A DNA stretch of 25,304 bases from a virus, in IMG/VR virus record IMGVR_UViG_3300007542_000169, positions 1-25,304 of that record. One strand, written 5' to 3'. Shown here in pieces: positions 12,054 through 25,184 of this stretch; within the stretch, counting starts at the first letter, position 1, and each line of letters begins with the position of its first letter. A program made the position numbers and the translations under genes. The notes under the pieces are model-generated. The model made no database searches, was not told the DNA's origin, and saw only the letters and a list, made by a program, of their open reading frames with translations.

Positions 12054-12062
12054 TGATATAAT
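12054..12062 (+). promoter_or_regulatory. Extended -10 promoter, leaderless type, before the 153-aa gene
   Basis: TGATATAAT is a perfect extended -10 (TGnTATAAT). The TATAAT ends at 12062 and ATG 12069 begins six bases later, so transcription would start at or next to the start codon. No ribosome binding site is present. No good -35 is visible, as expected for an extended -10 promoter. Confidence 0.6.
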
Positions 12063-12068
12063 TTACCT

Positions 12069-12530
12069 ATGGCAACAGCAATCCCATTACCAGACAGAGG
12101 TCAGCCATTAGACGTTACCTATATTTATCAGATGGCAAATGCCATCAATTCACTTGCTACTCAGATATCTCAGGCTAGCGACAACTACACAACCATATAC
12201 ACAAGAGATGCTGGAAAGCAGCAAATAAAGACAAACTCTGCAAAGATTATTGCTGGATACTATGATGTCATTAACAATCAAAGAGTTGAAACTAATCAGG
12301 TTATTCCCTTTAACCTAACATACTCAGACTTTAAGTATCCACCAATTGTAACAGCAACAGTAGTTAAGAATGGAACAAGCGAAATTGCATACGATGCTAA
12401 CGTAGTGCTTGACTCAGTAACGGGATCAAGGGTGGATGGAAAGGTAAAGTTTTACGCAAGTGGAGATAACGTAAGCGTTACCATAAACTTGATTGCAATA
12501 GGAATACCTCAGTCTTCTGATATAATTTAG
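12069..12530 (+). CDS. Small tail fibre / structural protein (153 aa)
   Basis: The N-terminus (ATAIPLPDRGQPLDVTYIY, then MANAINSLATQIS) reads as a short attachment peptide followed by a helix, possibly trimerising. The C-terminal half (YPPIVTATVVKNG ... VKFYASGDNVSVTINLIAIG) is an all-beta domain similar in style to fibre-tip domains. No enzyme motif. It is the last structural-type gene before the non-structural block. It has no Shine-Dalgarno sequence but sits six bases after a TATAAT box, so it may be translated from a leaderless transcript, separately from the tail operon. The fibre-tip role is inference. Confidence 0.6.
   Translation: MATAIPLPDRGQPLDVTYIYQMANAINSLATQISQASDNYTTIYTRDAGKQQIKTNSAKIIAGYYDVINNQRVETNQVIPFNLTYSDFKYPPIVTATVVKNGTSEIAYDANVVLDSVTGSRVDGKVKFYASGDNVSVTINLIAIGIPQSSDII
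12518..12526 (+). promoter_or_regulatory. Extended -10 promoter, leaderless type, before the zinc-ribbon gene
   Basis: TGATATAAT again, identical to the element at 12054, and again exactly six bases separate the TATAAT from the start codon (GTG 12533). It lies within the last codons of the upstream gene (stop 12528-12530). No ribosome binding site is seen. Confidence 0.6.
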
Positions 12531-12532
12531 CC

Positions 12533-12718
12533 GTGATCTCATGTAATCGTTGCGGCAGCAGAATGTTTGTTGACCGTGTATATACAGCAGAAAACCACAT
12601 TGAGACATTTTGTATTGCTTGTGGAAATAGAAAGTTCTACCATAACTCACAAGAGAAAGAAGCGCTATGGCTACTAAGGGCGGAGAAGAAGAGGGAACAA
12701 GCCTTAATCTTCCAGTAA
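12533..12718 (+). CDS. Small zinc-ribbon protein (61 aa)
   Basis: Four cysteines in two CxxC pairs (C4, C7 and C27, C30) give a typical zinc ribbon, followed by a basic helix (LLRAEKKREQ). Such small ribbons in phages bind nucleic acid or host transcription components, but the target here is unknown. GTG is chosen as start because it keeps the first CxxC and lies six bases downstream of a TATAAT box, making this a likely leaderless gene. The C-terminal 52 bases overlap the next gene in another frame. Confidence 0.6.
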   Translation: MISCNRCGSRMFVDRVYTAENHIETFCIACGNRKFYHNSQEKEALWLLRAEKKREQALIFQ

Positions 12719-13209
12719 TCCAAAGACCAAGAAGAAAGACTTGGTTTCTTGATGAAGACTTAGTTAGAATAACTCATGTTAGTCGTGCATCAGGAATAAT
12801 TACCCTATATAATTGCACAAAAGATTGCAATATGACTACAACTATGGTAGAATTTAAGCGTAAGCGGAAGCGTGCGTTTACAGTAATGGAAACCGCTGCT
12901 CTGCTTAACTACCATAGAAAGAGCATACCAAGATTAGTAAAGAATGGTTTTCTCCCTCCACCCGTAGGCGAACTCCCTGGTGGAGAAACCGCGTTTCATC
13001 ACCTAAGTTACTACAGCGAGGACCATATATGGGAAGCCAGAAATCTTATGGCTCAGACACATATGGGCAGGGCAAGAAAAGATGGTTTGGTAACAAACAA
13101 CAAAACTCCAACTGAACAAGAACTCCGATACGCAATGGGTGACGGACTAATATATTATGTAAAAAATGAACAGGGCAATTTCGTGCCAGTATTTTCAGAA
13201 ACCGTTTAG
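12667..13209 (+). CDS. MerR-like helix-turn-helix DNA-binding protein (180 aa)
   Basis: Residues about 62-70 form a basic patch (KRKRKRAFTV). This leads into a winged helix-turn-helix like that of MerR/excisionase proteins: METAALLNYHRKSIPRLVKNG, then the wing, then YYSEDHIWEARNLM. The N-terminal ~55 residues (WFLDEDLVRITHVSRASGIITLYN) form a separate beta-rich part, and the C-terminal segment closes with GLIYYVKNEQGNFVPV. It probably binds DNA as a regulator of the adjacent early operon, whose promoter begins four bases after its stop. It could alternatively be a structural DNA-bridging or excisionase-type protein. The start ATG 12667 has a weak purine-rich site (AGAGAAAGA) upstream. Confidence 0.6.
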   Translation: MATKGGEEEGTSLNLPVIQRPRRKTWFLDEDLVRITHVSRASGIITLYNCTKDCNMTTTMVEFKRKRKRAFTVMETAALLNYHRKSIPRLVKNGFLPPPVGELPGGETAFHHLSYYSEDHIWEARNLMAQTHMGRARKDGLVTNNKTPTEQELRYAMGDGLIYYVKNEQGNFVPVFSETV

Positions 13210-13212
13210 GTG

Positions 13213-13242
13213 TTGACAGAGCCATAGTGTAGGTGCTATGCT
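13213..13242 (+). promoter_or_regulatory. Sigma-70/SigA-type promoter of the replication operon
   Basis: TTGACA (13213-13218), an 18-base spacer, then TATGCT (13237-13242). Transcription would start near 13249, and GAAAGGA at 13258-13264 provides a ribosome binding site for ATG 13270. A full -35 contrasts with the extended -10 elements upstream. Confidence 0.65.
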
Positions 13243-13269
13243 TTTGCCACAACGAAAGAAAGGACTCCA

Positions 13270-13467
13270 ATGGAGCCAAGCAAAATTCAATGGTCACTGG
13301 GCTATACGCTCAACACAGGCAATTTCCAAAACATTCGTTTGGATTGTCAGATACAAGATTACGTTCGTGAAGGTGAGAATGCAAAGCAGGCATCTGATCG
13401 TATCTATGCCCTAGTTGAACAGCAACTTGTTGAAAAATTAAACGATGCAAGAGAGGAATTAGGATGA
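13270..13467 (+). CDS. Small conserved-looking phage protein (65 aa), unknown
   Basis: First gene behind the TTGACA promoter. A beta N-terminus (IQWSLGYTLNTGNFQNIRL) is followed by an amphipathic helix (ASDRIYALVEQQLVEKLNDAREE). Proteins of this layout are common in the early regions of actinobacterial phages, but no function is known to me. It has a good ribosome binding site, and its ATGA stop overlaps the next start by four bases. It may be a replication accessory protein by context alone. Confidence 0.6.
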   Translation: MEPSKIQWSLGYTLNTGNFQNIRLDCQIQDYVREGENAKQASDRIYALVEQQLVEKLNDAREELG

Positions 13468-13673
13468 ATAAAGCATATATTGCAACAGCAGAGAACGCAC
13501 AGTTAGTCGTTGCCTTTGACAAGAATCCATCAAAGGCCATGAAGGATGTGGCAAAGAAGATTAATCAGATGCAGCATAACGATGAATGGCTAATGCTAAC
13601 CAGCCTAAATGTTGGTTATGATGAAGAGGGGCTTTATCATATAACCGCTACAGTATCTTCTGTGAATGTATAA
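13464..13673 (+). CDS. Small hypothetical protein (69 aa)
   Basis: Not recognised. A mixed alpha/beta small protein with a lysine-rich central helix (SKAMKDVAKKINQMQ) and two terminal strands (LMLTSLNVGYDEEG; YHITATVSSVNV). It is coupled to both neighbours: ATGA with the upstream gene, TAATG with the downstream gene. No cysteine pairs, signal peptide or membrane segment. Confidence 0.55.
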   Translation: MNKAYIATAENAQLVVAFDKNPSKAMKDVAKKINQMQHNDEWLMLTSLNVGYDEEGLYHITATVSSVNV

Positions 13674-13984
13674 TGTCAGATCGCAAGTATCGATTTGCTT
13701 TAATTAGCAAATTTGAAAAGAGATGTAAAGATGCTGGATTTCCTATGCCCACTCTGAATAAACACAGGGAGCAATGGGCGGCAGACGACCTGCTTGAGTC
13801 CTATGATGATCCAGAATTGGTTAGCGCAATGGATTATTATTTTACAATTAATCCTCGTCCAACGTGGAAGGGGTATTGCCAGAATGTGGATAGGCTGCTA
13901 TTGTCTATGAAAGCAAAGAAGGCAGACGAAGAGTTTCGCGCAGAAATGCGCCAGAAAGCAAAGGAGTGGCTAAATGAATCTTGA
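13673..13984 (+). CDS. Small protein upstream of helicase (103 aa), possible loader
   Basis: Helical basic protein with a central W-AADDLLESYDDPELVSAM then YYFTINPRPTWKGYC segment. I do not recognise a named family. Phages often encode a helicase loader or replication-initiation factor directly upstream of a DnaB-type helicase, and this gene overlaps the helicase gene by 11 bases, so a loader role is possible but unproven. No AAA+ Walker motif is present, so it is not a DnaC-type ATPase. There is no clear ribosome binding site; translation is probably coupled to the upstream stop (TAATG). Confidence 0.55.
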   Translation: MSDRKYRFALISKFEKRCKDAGFPMPTLNKHREQWAADDLLESYDDPELVSAMDYYFTINPRPTWKGYCQNVDRLLLSMKAKKADEEFRAEMRQKAKEWLNES

Positions 13985-15185
13985 GGCAAAGACCCTATCT
14001 GCGGTCCTAAATGATAAGCAGGTACATGTTCTTCTACAGGCAAACGTAGACACCCTTTTGCGTACACACAAAGATGTCTGGGACTTTATTAGAAACTACT
14101 ACGAGCAAAACCAGTCATCCCCTCCAGTAGATGTTGTTGTGACAAAGTTCCGCGACTTTGACTATGCACCACAAACAGGCGCTACGAAACACCACCTTGA
14201 TGAATTACGGGCAGACTATCTAAACGATAATATTAAGGTGATGTTGCGTAATGCAGCAAATGAGGTTCAAGATGGAAAGGCCATGGAAGCGCTTGACTCA
14301 TTGGTTACAGACACCGCTAACCTAAAGCGGATCACATCAACCGTAAGAGATCTTGATGTTTCAGATGTTGATGATGCCGTTGCGTATTTTGAGAACATTA
14401 AAAAGTTGCAGGAGAGCGGCACTCATGGAATTTATACTGGGTTAGCAGGATTTGACAACTATCTTCCAGCAGGAATTACTCCAGGACAGTTTGGGGTATT
14501 GCTTGCTTATCCTGCCATTGGTAAGTCTTGGATGGCCTTATACCTCGCTGTTCAGGCTTGGCGGAATGGCAAGAGTCCCCTTATCGTTTCCCTAGAGATG
14601 ACAGAGGCAGAAGTTAGAAACCGCGTCTACACAATCATTGGTCAAGGCATGTGGAGTCATCGAAAGTTATCTCGCGGCGAGGTAGAGATTGATATGTTTA
14701 AGAAGTGGATGCATAAGACCTTTGACGGCAAGCCAAGCATTAACATTATTTCAAACGAGGGAATCGGAGAAGTCACTCCATCAGTTTTGAGAGGCAAGAT
14801 TGATCAGTACAAGCCAGATATTGTATTTGTAGATTATCTAAACCTTATGTCTGCAAATCAGCGTACAGACAACGAGGTTGTCAAGATGAAGAATCTTAGT
14901 CGTGAATTGAAGTTGTTGGCTATCTCTGAAGAGATTCCTGTGGTTGCTATTTCTTCTGCCACACCAGATGATGTTACTGATATGAATAGTGTTCCCACTC
15001 TTGGTCAGACTTCATGGTCACGACAGATTGCCTATGATGCTGACTGGCTTCTTGCTTTAGGCCGCGCAGCCAATAGCGATGTTCTTGAAGCAGTATTTAG
15101 AAAGAATCGCAATGGTTTCTTGGGCGAGTTCGTTGTTCAGGTAGACTTTGATAGTGGTAGGTTCGTTTATAAAGATTTTGAATAA
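13974..15185 (+). CDS. dnaB: DnaB-like replicative DNA helicase
   Basis: Hexameric 5'-3' helicase that unwinds the fork and recruits primase. The N-terminal ~120 residues are a helical domain, and residues about 150-403 form the RecA-like motor. Visible motifs: Walker A AYPAIGKS (178-185), SLEM (206-209), Walker B DIVFVDYLNL (282-291), WSRQIAYDADWLL (348-360), and FRKNRNG (375-381) followed by a VDFDSGRF strand. At 403 residues it is slightly shorter than bacterial DnaB (about 450-470), as is common in phages. The first Walker A glycine is replaced by alanine while the catalytic GKS is kept. A strong site, AAGGAG (13961-13966), sits seven bases before ATG. It is followed by a separate leaderless-type promoter and then by primase, consistent with one replisome module. 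Confidence 0.9.
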   Translation: MNLEAKTLSAVLNDKQVHVLLQANVDTLLRTHKDVWDFIRNYYEQNQSSPPVDVVVTKFRDFDYAPQTGATKHHLDELRADYLNDNIKVMLRNAANEVQDGKAMEALDSLVTDTANLKRITSTVRDLDVSDVDDAVAYFENIKKLQESGTHGIYTGLAGFDNYLPAGITPGQFGVLLAYPAIGKSWMALYLAVQAWRNGKSPLIVSLEMTEAEVRNRVYTIIGQGMWSHRKLSRGEVEIDMFKKWMHKTFDGKPSINIISNEGIGEVTPSVLRGKIDQYKPDIVFVDYLNLMSANQRTDNEVVKMKNLSRELKLLAISEEIPVVAISSATPDDVTDMNSVPTLGQTSWSRQIAYDADWLLALGRAANSDVLEAVFRKNRNGFLGEFVVQVDFDSGRFVYKDFE

Positions 15186-15195
15186 GATAATCATG

Positions 15196-15201
15196 TATAA
15201 T
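15196..15201 (+). promoter_or_regulatory. -10 promoter element, leaderless type, before the 105-aa gene
   Basis: A perfect TATAAT ends seven bases before ATG 15209, in the short gap after the helicase gene. The TG pair lies one base closer than in a standard extended -10. No convincing -35 and no ribosome binding site are present, again fitting a leaderless start. Confidence 0.5.
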
Positions 15202-15208
15202 TTACTAC

Positions 15209-15526
15209 ATGAACTACATGCACAAAAGAATAAAGCGTTTTGAACTAAGTGGTCAAATCTTAGACGATATCTTTATTCCGCGCATGAAAAATGAATACAT
15301 AAGACTGCTTTGCGACTCAATGAGAGAAGATGGGTATGTAATAAGACTTGACGTTGAGCCAGATTGGTCGCTATCATATACAGGAAATTATTACGAATTC
15401 ACACTAAGTGTATACGGATCATATATCGGAAAGAAGAATGCCTCATGTATCGAAGGACTAGACAAGAACAGACCAATTTATATTCAGCAGAACAAATCAA
15501 AAGAGTCATCTCAGGCTCAGGCATAG
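15209..15526 (+). CDS. Hypothetical protein between helicase and primase (105 aa)
   Basis: Not recognised. Basic N-terminus (MHKRIKRFELSGQIL), then a helix (FIPRMKNEYIRLLCDSMREDG) and beta strands (YVIRLDVEPDWSLSYTG; FTLSVYGSYIGKK). The last 27 codons overlap the primase start by 82 bases in another frame and encode a polar tail. That overlap is long for this genome, where 1-11 bases is usual. The start follows a TATAAT box by seven bases with no Shine-Dalgarno sequence. A role in primosome assembly is suggested only by position. Confidence 0.55.
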   Translation: MNYMHKRIKRFELSGQILDDIFIPRMKNEYIRLLCDSMREDGYVIRLDVEPDWSLSYTGNYYEFTLSVYGSYIGKKNASCIEGLDKNRPIYIQQNKSKESSQAQA

Positions 15527-17076: not shown

Positions 17077-17106
17077 TTGACATAAGGCGTGGCGGAGTGC
17101 TAGAAT
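17077..17106 (+). promoter_or_regulatory. Sigma-70/SigA-type promoter of the DNA polymerase gene
   Basis: TTGACA (17077-17082), immediately after the preceding stop, an 18-base spacer, then TAGAAT (17101-17106). The downstream half of the promoter, including the -10, is embedded in a perfect inverted repeat (17092-17125), so hairpin formation, repressor binding or read-through could affect its use. Confidence 0.65.
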
Positions 17107-17128
17107 CTAACAACTAGCACTCCGCTAC
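17089..17128 (+). terminator. Strong hairpin overlapping the polymerase promoter (possible I-shaped terminator or operator)
   Basis: Perfect 12-base arms, GCGGAGTGCTAG (17092-17103) and CTAGCACTCCGC (17114-17125), with a 10-base loop. The stem can extend by three more pairs, including one G-T pair. It follows the ssDNA-binding protein stop, as a terminator would, but has only a weak T-rich tail (TACTTTATT). It also contains the -10 element of the next promoter, so it may instead be an operator. Confidence 0.55.
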
Positions 17129-17134
17129 TTTATT

Positions 17135-17140
17135 AAGGAG
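17135..17140 (+). promoter_or_regulatory. Ribosome binding site supporting the TTG start of the polymerase
   Basis: AAGGAG lies four bases before TTG 17145. The next in-frame ATG (17163) is 22 bases away and would remove residues just ahead of the PHP histidine pair, so TTG is preferred. The short spacing and rare start may limit expression. Confidence 0.5.
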
Positions 17141-17144
17141 AATT

Positions 17145-20100
17145 TTGATTAACTACCTGCCAATGCACATGCACGACCATTACAGCATTTTTGATGGTAC
17201 TGCAACGCCTGAGGACTATGCTATTCGTGCCAAGGAACTTGGAATGACAGCAGCAGCCCAAACAAATCATGGAACTAGTTCTGGTCACCGTGACTGGATT
17301 CGTACAATGAGATCTCATGGAATTAAGCCAATTGTGGGTCAAGAGATGTATTTCACTGGAGACAGATTTGACACACGCGATAAGGCAGAGCGCACAACAC
17401 CACTAGATTTAATTTATAATCACCTTATCGTTATTGCCAAGAACGACCAAGGGCTTGAGAATCTTTCTCGCCTATCAGAGATCGCTTGGAACGAGGGCTA
17501 CTACAGGAAGCCACGCATTGACTGGGAAGTCCTTGAGAAGTATAAGGAAGGGCTCATAGTTACTTCTGGATGCATGTCTGGTCTGATCAACAAGGCAATT
17601 GAGGCAGATGAATATGGAATTGCTAAGCAGCACCTAAAGTGGTTTGATGATCAGTTTGGGGATGACTTCTATGTTGAGGTTATGCCACACAATACTGACG
17701 GAATGAATAGGGCTTTGATCGAACTTGCTGATGTTGGTGGATATAAGACAATTGTCACTCCAGACTGTCACCATGCAACGGTAGATCAAAAGGTAATTCA
17801 GGAAATGGTTCTACTTCTCAATACACATGCTAAGTTGAATGGAGAGTCATCTTATCAGGGAAGTACCAAGATTGAAGACATGATGGAGCGCTTGGATTAT
17901 CTTTATGGTAAGGATCGTTCCCTATCATTTAATAAGTTTGACATTCACCTTCTCAGTGGAGAAGAAATGTGGAATGCCATGGGAGATGACGCTCGTGAAG
18001 ATATGTTTAAGAACACCTATGATCTTGGAGATAAGGTAGAGGAATACACTCTTAGCCGTAATCTAAATCTCCTACCAGTAGAGCACAAAGACCCTGATGC
18101 ACAGATTAGAAAGTATGCAGAATCTTTTCTGATAGAGAAGAACCTAAACACCAATCAAGAATATGTTGATAGGCTTAACGAAGAACTAGATATTATTAAG
18201 CAAAAGAAGTTTGCTTCATACTTCCTTGTTGTTCAGAACATGCTTAATTGGGCGAAGAAGAATGACATCATGGTCGGTCCAGGCCGTGGCTCTAGCGCTG
18301 GTTCACTGCTTTGCTATACCCTTGGCATCACAGACATTGATCCAATAAAGCATGGACTATTGTTCTTCCGATTCATCGACATTGATCGTGACGATTGGCC
18401 TGACATTGACTCAGATATTCAGGACTCACGCCGCGAAGAAGTAAAACAATATCTAGAGAATCAGTACAAGCATGTGGCATCAATCGCAACGTTTCTACAG
18501 TTCAAGGATAAGGGGGTTGTTAGAGACGTTAGTCGTGTTCTAAATGTTCCTCTTTCAGATGTCAATCGTGTACTTAAAGTTGTAGATACATGGGATGAGT
18601 TTGTAACCTCTAAGAATACTCAGTGGTTCCGCGACAAGTATCCAGACGTAGTTGTTTATGGAGATCAACTGAGAGGAAGAATTCGTGGTACAGGAGTTCA
18701 CGCTGCTGGTGTAGTCACATCCAAGTATCCCATTTCAAAAATTGCTCCAATGGAGACTCGAAACGTTACTGGAAGTGATGGAAGGCTTCCAGTTGTTGCG
18801 GTAGACATGGAAGAAGCAGCAGATATTGGTCTAATTAAAATTGATGCTTTGGGGCTCAAGACTCTTACCGTAATCAACGATACTCTCTCTATCATTAAAG
18901 ATAGATCAGGTGAGCGACCAGATCTACATAGCATTGACATGGAAGACAAGAGTATTTATGAAATGCTCTCTGACGGTCACACAAAGGGTGTTTTCCAATG
19001 TGAAGCAACTCCATACACAAACCTTTTGGTTAAGATGGGGGTATCTAAATTTGATGAATTGGTAGCCTCTAACGCACTGGTACGTCCAGGAGCCATGAAT
19101 ACTATCGGTAAGGACTATATTGCTCGCAAGCATGGTAAGCAGGGAATTGCCTATGCTAGCCCGATTATGAAGGACTTTACAGAGGACACATACGGTACAA
19201 TTCTTTATCAGGAGCAAGTCATGCTTGCTTGTACGGAACTTGGCGGCATGACAATGGGAGAGGCCAATAAGGTTCGTAACATTATTGGAAAGAAGAAGGA
19301 TGCAAGAGAATTTGATGAATTCAAGGAGTTATTCGTTAGGAATGCTACTGGGCCACTTGGTGGGACGGCTGCTGAGAAGATGTGGCAAGACTTTGAGGCT
19401 CACGCAGGATACTCGTTCAACAAGTCTCATGCTGTTGCTTATTCAACAGTTTCGTACTGGACGGCATGGCTAAAGTATTATTATCCACTAGAGTTTATGT
19501 TTGCTCTTCTTAAGAATGAGAAGGACAAGGATGCTCGCACAGAATATCTAATTGAGGCAAAGCGCATGGGCATTCCTATGCGGCTTCCACACATCAATGA
19601 TTCAGGTATTGACTTTAAGATTGAGGGAAAGGGAATTCGTTTTGGGCTTTCTGGCATTAAGTATATTTCTGATACAATCGCTACAAGATATATTGGCTCA
19701 CGGCCCTTTGCTTCTTATAAAGAAGTTCAAGAGTTTACATTCACAAAGGGAAATGGAGTAAACTCAAGAGCGCTTGAAGCACTAAGAAAGGTTGGCGCTC
19801 TCACATTCCCAGACAATCCTCGCAATGAAGAAGAAATTCGTGAAAATATGTACGAATATCTAAACTTGCCAGAGTTTAATCTACAAGTTCCTCAACACTA
19901 CCATGCTTACATCACTCCAGTCGATGAGTTTGACGAAAAGGGAGCATTCGTAATGATGGGCGTTGTTCGCGGTATTAAAAGAGGTAAGGGATGGAGTCGT
20001 GTAGAACTACTAGACAGTACAGGAAGTGTAGGTATATTTGATGAAGAGGAAACATCCATCGAAGCAGGTCGCAGTTATATTATTCTTGTTGGATCTAACA

Positions 20101-24475: not shown

Positions 24476-24583
24476 AACCATGTGACCATTATCACCCAGT
24501 AGCCATAAACTTGAAAAACACCTTTATTTTTTCTTCAAATTATGTTAGTCTATTATGATGTTGCTGCCGCAAGGAGGAAACAG
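24476..24583 (+). other. 108-base intergenic region upstream of the lysin gene
   Basis: Longest non-coding gap in the window. It holds TTGAAA at 24511 and AT-rich stretches with possible -10 boxes (TATGTT 24541, TATTAT 24551), but spacings are poor, so I do not assign a firm promoter. A weak GTGA/TCAC inverted repeat (24482-24495) is present. The region ends in a strong ribosome binding site for the lysin. Confidence 0.4.
24571..24577 (+). promoter_or_regulatory. Strong ribosome binding site of the lysin gene
   Basis: AAGGAGG lies six bases before ATG 24584. This decides the start: the upstream in-frame ATG 24542 would add 14 residues, partly encoding the Shine-Dalgarno itself, and would displace the signal peptide. 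Confidence 0.75.
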
Positions 24584-25120
24584 ATGAAAACGAAACTGCT
24601 AGGAGGAATTTTAGGAATGGTGATTGCTATGAGTACAACACTGCCAGCAATTGCTGAACCTATCCCCAATCAGGTGTATGCTAAATCTGCACCGACTGCG
24701 ACAAAACAAGTCGTAGTATCCAGTCGTGAGTATCAAATTGCAAGATCAGTAGATGCTAGAGACATGATGGGATATGAACCCTCTCTTTACAGGGGGGAAT
24801 GGTATGATTCAAAATGGGAAAATACAAGAAAATGTATTATGCACAGAGAATCACGTTTCAGTTACAAATCAGCAAATAAAACATCATCAGCGAGAGGGGC
24901 ATACCAATTTTTGGATAATTCCTGGAGAGTGTCCTTAACGTATATGATGTTAGAAGAATCAAAGAAAATCAATGATGGTTTATCCAAGGAAATTAAAAAG
25001 TTAAGAGATAAGCCAATTCACGAATGGAATAGATATTACCAAGATAGGTCTTTCTTTACAGCATGGAGACATGGTGCTGGAAAGAAGCATTGGTATCAAT
25101 TTAATTCTAAGTGCATGTAG
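24584..25120 (+). CDS. Secreted transglycosylase-like cell-wall lysis protein (178 aa)
   Basis: Likely a peptidoglycan-cleaving enzyme used in lysis. The N-terminus MKTKLLGGILGMVIAMSTTL, then PAIA before E25, is a Sec signal peptide with an AxA-type cleavage site. Residues about 80-116 (RKCIMHRESRFSYKSANK, then SARGAYQF and W114) match the SLT/Rpf-like lysozyme core, with E89 as likely catalytic glutamate. The C-terminal FTAWRHGAGKKHW segment closes the domain, and C84 and C177 could form a disulphide outside the membrane. A signal peptide means it may reach the wall without a holin; I see no holin nearby. It could alternatively be a secreted wall-remodelling factor. It lies far from the tail genes and is followed by a hairpin and a new promoter. 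Confidence 0.7.
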   Translation: MKTKLLGGILGMVIAMSTTLPAIAEPIPNQVYAKSAPTATKQVVVSSREYQIARSVDARDMMGYEPSLYRGEWYDSKWENTRKCIMHRESRFSYKSANKTSSARGAYQFLDNSWRVSLTYMMLEESKKINDGLSKEIKKLRDKPIHEWNRYYQDRSFFTAWRHGAGKKHWYQFNSKCM

Positions 25121-25175: not shown

Positions 25176-25184
25176 TGCTATAAT
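25176..25184 (+). promoter_or_regulatory. Extended -10 promoter before the last gene
   Basis: TGCTATAAT is a perfect extended -10. ATG 25195 begins ten bases after the TATAAT, with AGGGGA (25185-25190) between them that could act as a ribosome site or fall upstream of the transcript start. The candidate -35 (CAACAA, 25156) is weak. Confidence 0.6.

Follow-up and report, generated by a model that had tools for sequence, protein, structure and literature searches.

The window, by which we mean the whole stretch of DNA analyzed here, is a 25,304-base IMG/VR virus fragment with a G+C content of 39%. Its left part carries tail genes (tape measure, minor tail, baseplate-like), and its right part is given over to replication and recombination genes encoding DnaB, primase, SSB, DnaE, a UvsX-like protein, a Cas4-like exonuclease and RuvC. 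Genes without a name are referred to here by their start position. No nucleotide-level match was found between the window and named phages. The gene order HTH-DnaB-15209-primase-SSB-DnaE is that of Stanwilliamsviridae and of Rhodococcus phage Trina, although with identities to Stanwilliamsviridae of about 38% for DnaB and about 53% for DnaE the window is too distant to be filed as a member. A WhiB domain scored above the cut-off in 9 of the 14 related contigs searched, and a whiB-like gene is an indicator of actinobacterial hosts (PMC10202952). Taken with the gene order and homology to Stanwilliamsviridae and Trina, this makes it very probable that the phage is an actinophage and its host an actinobacterium; a plausible guess is that the host belongs to the freshwater Nanopelagicales. 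When genome contigs were searched for the host, the DnaB query gave no match and the WhiB query matched only two contigs, L118 and L119, which are filed in public MAGs as Chitinophagaceae/Chitinophaga; these WhiB-bearing contigs are probably mis-binned actinophage DNA.

Table 1 Putative promoter elements and the genes they precede, in window coordinates
Feature	Position	Strand	Description
Putative extended -10 element TGATATAAT	12054..12062	+	Followed by TTACCT and ATG 12069; box ends 6 nt before start
Gene 12069, leaderless candidate 1	12069..12530	+	153-aa protein; downstream of tail/baseplate-like genes
Putative extended -10 element TGATATAAT	12518..12526	+	Followed by TTAGCC and GTG 12533; box ends 6 nt before start; overlaps 3' end of gene 12069
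Gene 12533, leaderless or near-leaderless candidate 2	12533..12718	+	61-aa zinc-ribbon-like protein; phrog_12850, E 2.5e-15
Putative ordinary promoter TTGACA-18-TATGCT, for contrast	13213..13242	+	27 nt before ATG 13270; SD-like AAAGGA
Putative -10 element TATAAT	15196..15201	+	Context ATGTATAAT; followed by TTACTAC and ATG 15209; box ends 7 nt before start; between dnaB and 15209
Gene 15209, leaderless candidate 3	15209..15526	+	105-aa protein, phrog_17515; between DnaB helicase and primase
Fourth candidate (near-leaderless), TGCTATAAT	25176..25184	+	10 nt before ATG 25195; ORF runs off the window; overlooked in the earlier note

Three starts in the window lie just downstream of a TATAAT box (Table 1). 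An earlier note on this DNA had placed these boxes 6, 6 and 7 nt before 12069, 12533 and 15209, and had described the first two as identical extended -10 elements; direct reading confirms the spacings, and both of the first two boxes indeed read TGATATAAT. Among the three, only the boxes of 12069 and 12533 have the TGn that marks the extended -10 type. The same note had observed that these starts lack a Shine-Dalgarno (SD) sequence while most other genes have one, and this too holds: inspected directly, none of the three (0/3) is preceded by an SD core, against 15 of 21 other inspected starts in the window. TATAAT shows no enrichment in the window as a whole (23 found, 22.7 expected), and neither does TGnTATAAT with one mismatch (34 found, 39.6 expected). 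At 5–8 nt upstream of 24 window starts, however, TATAAT was seen three times where 0.06–0.09 would be expected, with a Poisson P of 3e-5 to 1.2e-4 for a spacing range that was picked after the data had been seen. What is unusual about TATAAT in the window is its position, not its abundance.

Some 100 related contigs were compared overall. A DnaB search yielded a first set of 80 loci, in which homologs of the window genes and their starts were located, and de-duplication removed upstream regions more than 85% alike; a second set of relatives was fetched separately, one or two of its loci belonging to first-set contigs. Conservation of the boxes among relatives, which the earlier note had named as a check on its reading, is strong for 12069 and 15209 and, for 12533, holds within a close clade. 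In the case of 15209, TATAAT stands 5–7 nt before the start in all 24 de-duplicated homologs, none of which has an SD (0/24), and the box recurs in 12/12 of the separately fetched set, once as TATACT. The start itself is not an artifact of picking a codon near the box, since in 28 of 31 distinct homologs it is the only in-frame start codon within the first 11 codons. The TG ahead of this box is less marked, and this phage has it one base out of register, so that no TGn element results. Among the relatives examined, Streptomyces phage homologs of 15209 have no TATAAT and start on the dnaB stop or only a few bases from it, so the promoter was either gained or lost between the freshwater and Streptomyces lineages. 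At window positions 15209–15220, freshwater homologs begin 3–4 codons upstream of the Streptomyces phage ones (MHKTIKRF), a difference that looks like a shift of the start codon toward the promoter.

Neighboring genes served as controls. No TATAAT was present within 45 nt upstream in homologs of five of them (0/31, 0/36, 0/34, 0/42 and 0/22), and three of the five had SD cores in 23/31, 28/34 and 42/42 homologs; a sixth, gene 13270, has homologs without TATAAT at 4–9 nt.

The 12069 protein has no family match, and tblastn recovered 66 homologs of it in related contigs. Among 42 de-duplicated homologs the box occupies two discrete positions: TATAAT lies 5–9 nt before the start in 28, with 9 nt a common spacing, and at 15–18 nt in 8, while none has it at 10–14 nt. 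All eight homologs with the longer spacing have an SD (Fisher P 4e-5 for SD presence against box spacing). An SD-like core also falls between box and start in 5 of the 28 close-spaced homologs; there it would be upstream of the predicted transcript start and could be used on read-through mRNA. Side by side, the two forms of the upstream region read TATAATttacctATGGCAACAGCA in the window and TATAATttactaggagaaaaaATGGCAACAGGA in the related contig L005, whose SD form is shared by L004, L006 and L008, whereas L007, L009, L010, L011, L012 and L014 have the window-like form. If transcription starts about 7 nt past the box, the leader of the long form would be about 10 nt in length and consist of little besides the SD. 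On a quick DnaB tree covering 53 relatives, at least 8 changes of spacing state are needed; recombination between DnaB and 12069 is possible, and spacing-9 sites were scored as leaderless.

Alignment of 37 de-duplicated 12069 sites on the box, with TG not a selection criterion, placed the T and G two bases before it at 95 and 92%, and revealed no conserved -35, the columns reaching at most about 0.3 bit. These two properties point to extended -10 promoters without a conserved -35. A -35 at normal spacing was considered for 12069 and rejected: TAGCCA at 12034 matches at only 4/6 positions, and relatives have no conserved signal there.

For 12533, the GTG start is supported by the alignment of phrog_12850 profile position 2 with residue 3 of the protein. 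TATAAT was found at 6–9 nt in 8 of 40 de-duplicated homologs of the first set and in 12/12 close-clade relatives of the second, two of them as TATACT, usually with a spacing of 8–9 nt. Within this clade the box lies at the end of the upstream gene or beyond it, and is kept while the coding register over it shifts; the TGA stop of the upstream gene often forms the TGA of TGATATAAT. In more distant relatives most 12533 homologs have no box and a start codon that overlaps or adjoins the stop of the gene before, so the promoter is lineage-specific and confined to the close clade. The earlier note's proposal that the phage uses leaderless mRNAs is supported, promoters giving leaderless or near-leaderless mRNAs being the best-supported version; given the spacing of mostly 8–9 nt at 12533, "leaderless or with a 1–3 nt leader" is the safer wording for that gene.

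Close-spaced boxes extend to further genes. In four long related contigs TATAAT lies 5–7 nt before the start of 8/138, 9/122, 19/148 and 3/97 called genes, compared with means of 0.1–1.3 for permuted hexamers in the same contigs; these counts are supportive rather than decisive, because a single permuted hexamer reaches 8–9 in two of the four. Whole-record pattern counts on the richer strand exceeded the reversed-pattern control in most records. The box of gene 25195, the fourth candidate in Table 1, is found at about 9 nt in L088 (G002) and at about 21 nt, with AAAGGAG, in L101 (G007), so this gene appears to alternate between spacings as 12069 does. Upstream, between 25118 and 25195, a hairpin-like GTGGGGCAGG...CCTGCCCTAC is directly followed by TGCTATAAT, and some of the sequence preceding the box shows strong conservation in L088/L117.

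Candidate promoters of the TTGACA/TANNNT kind with an SD leader coexist with close-spaced boxes in the same phages. For instance, -35/-10 promoters similar to that before 13270 precede its homologs in L005, L007, L008, L014, L030 and L075. A strong hairpin between SSB and DnaE, at 17077–17145 (-28.1 kcal/mol, z -6), shares sequence with a TTGACA-18-TAGAAT promoter, the -10 of which falls in the hairpin's 5' arm and loop. This arrangement recurs in L009, where the stem has changed but still pairs. Such a hairpin could halt read-through yet spare dnaE transcripts, since RNA started at the TAGAAT promoter would be without the 5' arm. Elsewhere, at 24542–24584, the ORF start listed as 24542 is probably misplaced; an ATG at about 24584 is preceded by AAGGAGGAAACAG.

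We consider it very likely that the host's main sigma factor reads these boxes as -10 elements, giving rise to leaderless or near-leaderless mRNAs of 12069, 12533 and 15209. Most would be of the extended -10 type that works without a -35, and their closeness to the genes would have transcription begin on the start codon or 1–3 nt before it. Without an SD leader, the resulting mRNAs would be translated from a 5'-terminal AUG or GUG, a mode common among Actinobacteria, and the ribosomes involved would probably be 70S. Polycistronic copies may arise in addition where transcription reads through from genes upstream. What is observed is the position and conservation of the boxes, their extended -10 character, the lack of an SD or conserved -35, and the discrete leaderless and SD-leadered spacings; from these we infer the transcription start sites, the sigma factor, the mode of ribosome entry and the host.

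Of the competing explanations, the one with an appreciable if lesser chance of being right retains the boxes as promoters and has leaders of 1–5 nt, or a later in-frame start such as ATG 15218, so that strict "leaderless" would be wrong for some genes. Spacings of 8–9 nt are common among 12533 and 12069 homologs, and with 8–9 nt at 12533 and often 9 at 12069 a leader of 1–3 nt seems as likely as none at those two sites; Streptomyces homologs of 15209 moreover begin at the residue equivalent to ATG 15218. At 15209, however, the dearth of other nearby in-frame starts (28 of 31 distinct homologs have none) and the clustering of spacing at 5–7 nt speak against a shift of start, and ATG 15218 has no SD before it. 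That the boxes are instead read by a phage-modified polymerase, as a middle or late class of phage promoter, we regard as improbable. In its favor, the TGnTATAAT motif lacking a -35 is uniform and found repeatedly throughout the genome, and most relatives encode WhiB-like proteins, a group able to act together with sigma factors; yet housekeeping sigma factors have TGnTATAAT as their standard extended -10, and a search of 14 related contigs for a phage sigma factor found no sigma-70 region 4 domain over the cut-off, which favors the host's.

It is scarcely credible that the boxes arose by chance from AT richness or from the demands of the coding sequence, with the genes relying on translational coupling to the cistron before them. 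TATAAT is, to be sure, unenriched in the window as a whole, and most distant 12533 homologs have overlapping or adjoining stop and start codons without a box. Nevertheless, conservation in 24/24 (15209) and 28/42 (12069) diverged homologs, against zero in the five control genes, rules out a chance origin, and at 12533 the box is retained through changes in the coding register that overlies it. Host-read promoters giving leaderless or near-leaderless mRNAs remain our preferred reading. An extension of it, which we hold to be rather unlikely, is that a genome-wide leaderless class on extended -10 promoters forms a coordinated group, preferred when SD-dependent initiation becomes limiting in infection, with genes entering or leaving through an indel of about 9 nt, bearing AGGAG, between a fixed promoter and the start.

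The point of specialist interest is that the 12069 family exists in both forms on what looks like one promoter, leaderless at 5–9 nt and with an SD leader at 15–18 nt. Its repeated, discrete switching is a useful natural experiment, and such natural pairs allow one to test what leaderless initiation costs and what it is used for. There is a practical side as well, in that gene finders reliant on SD sequences can misplace the starts of such genes.

The leaderless layout itself is already known and common in Actinobacteria. Among phages, lambda cI has a transcript that starts at its AUG, but it is a single regulated repressor gene, whereas here several unrelated genes per genome share the layout. 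Lambda is named as the first leaderless case (PMC3160421), and leaderless transcripts are described as frequent among phages in a paper on phage AR9 (PMC5312081); our literature searches found no systematic account of leaderless translation in actinophages. The replication module of Stanwilliamsviridae (Streptomyces phages) and Trina shares its gene order with the window, but there the 15209 homolog lies near the dnaB stop without TATAAT. In Deinococcus, reporter work showed that a -10 box adjoining an ORF is the promoter of leaderless genes (PMC12340547). The fixed spacing of a -10 motif to the ORF is common to Deinococcus-Thermus and the window, although the former is a different phylum, the genes are cellular and the motif is a looser TANNNT. 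In Actinobacteria leaderless genes exceed 20% of the total and have TANNNT about 12 bp upstream of the start, and orthologs switch between SD-led and leaderless forms (Zheng et al. 2011, PMC3160421). Our three genes resemble these TA-led genes in having the first T of the box about 12 bp upstream (12, 12 and 13 bp at 12069, 12533 and 15209) and no SD, in sharing a genome with SD-led genes and in having orthologs that switch forms; they differ in being phage genes with a full TATAAT, often with the extended TG, and with transcript starts that are predicted.
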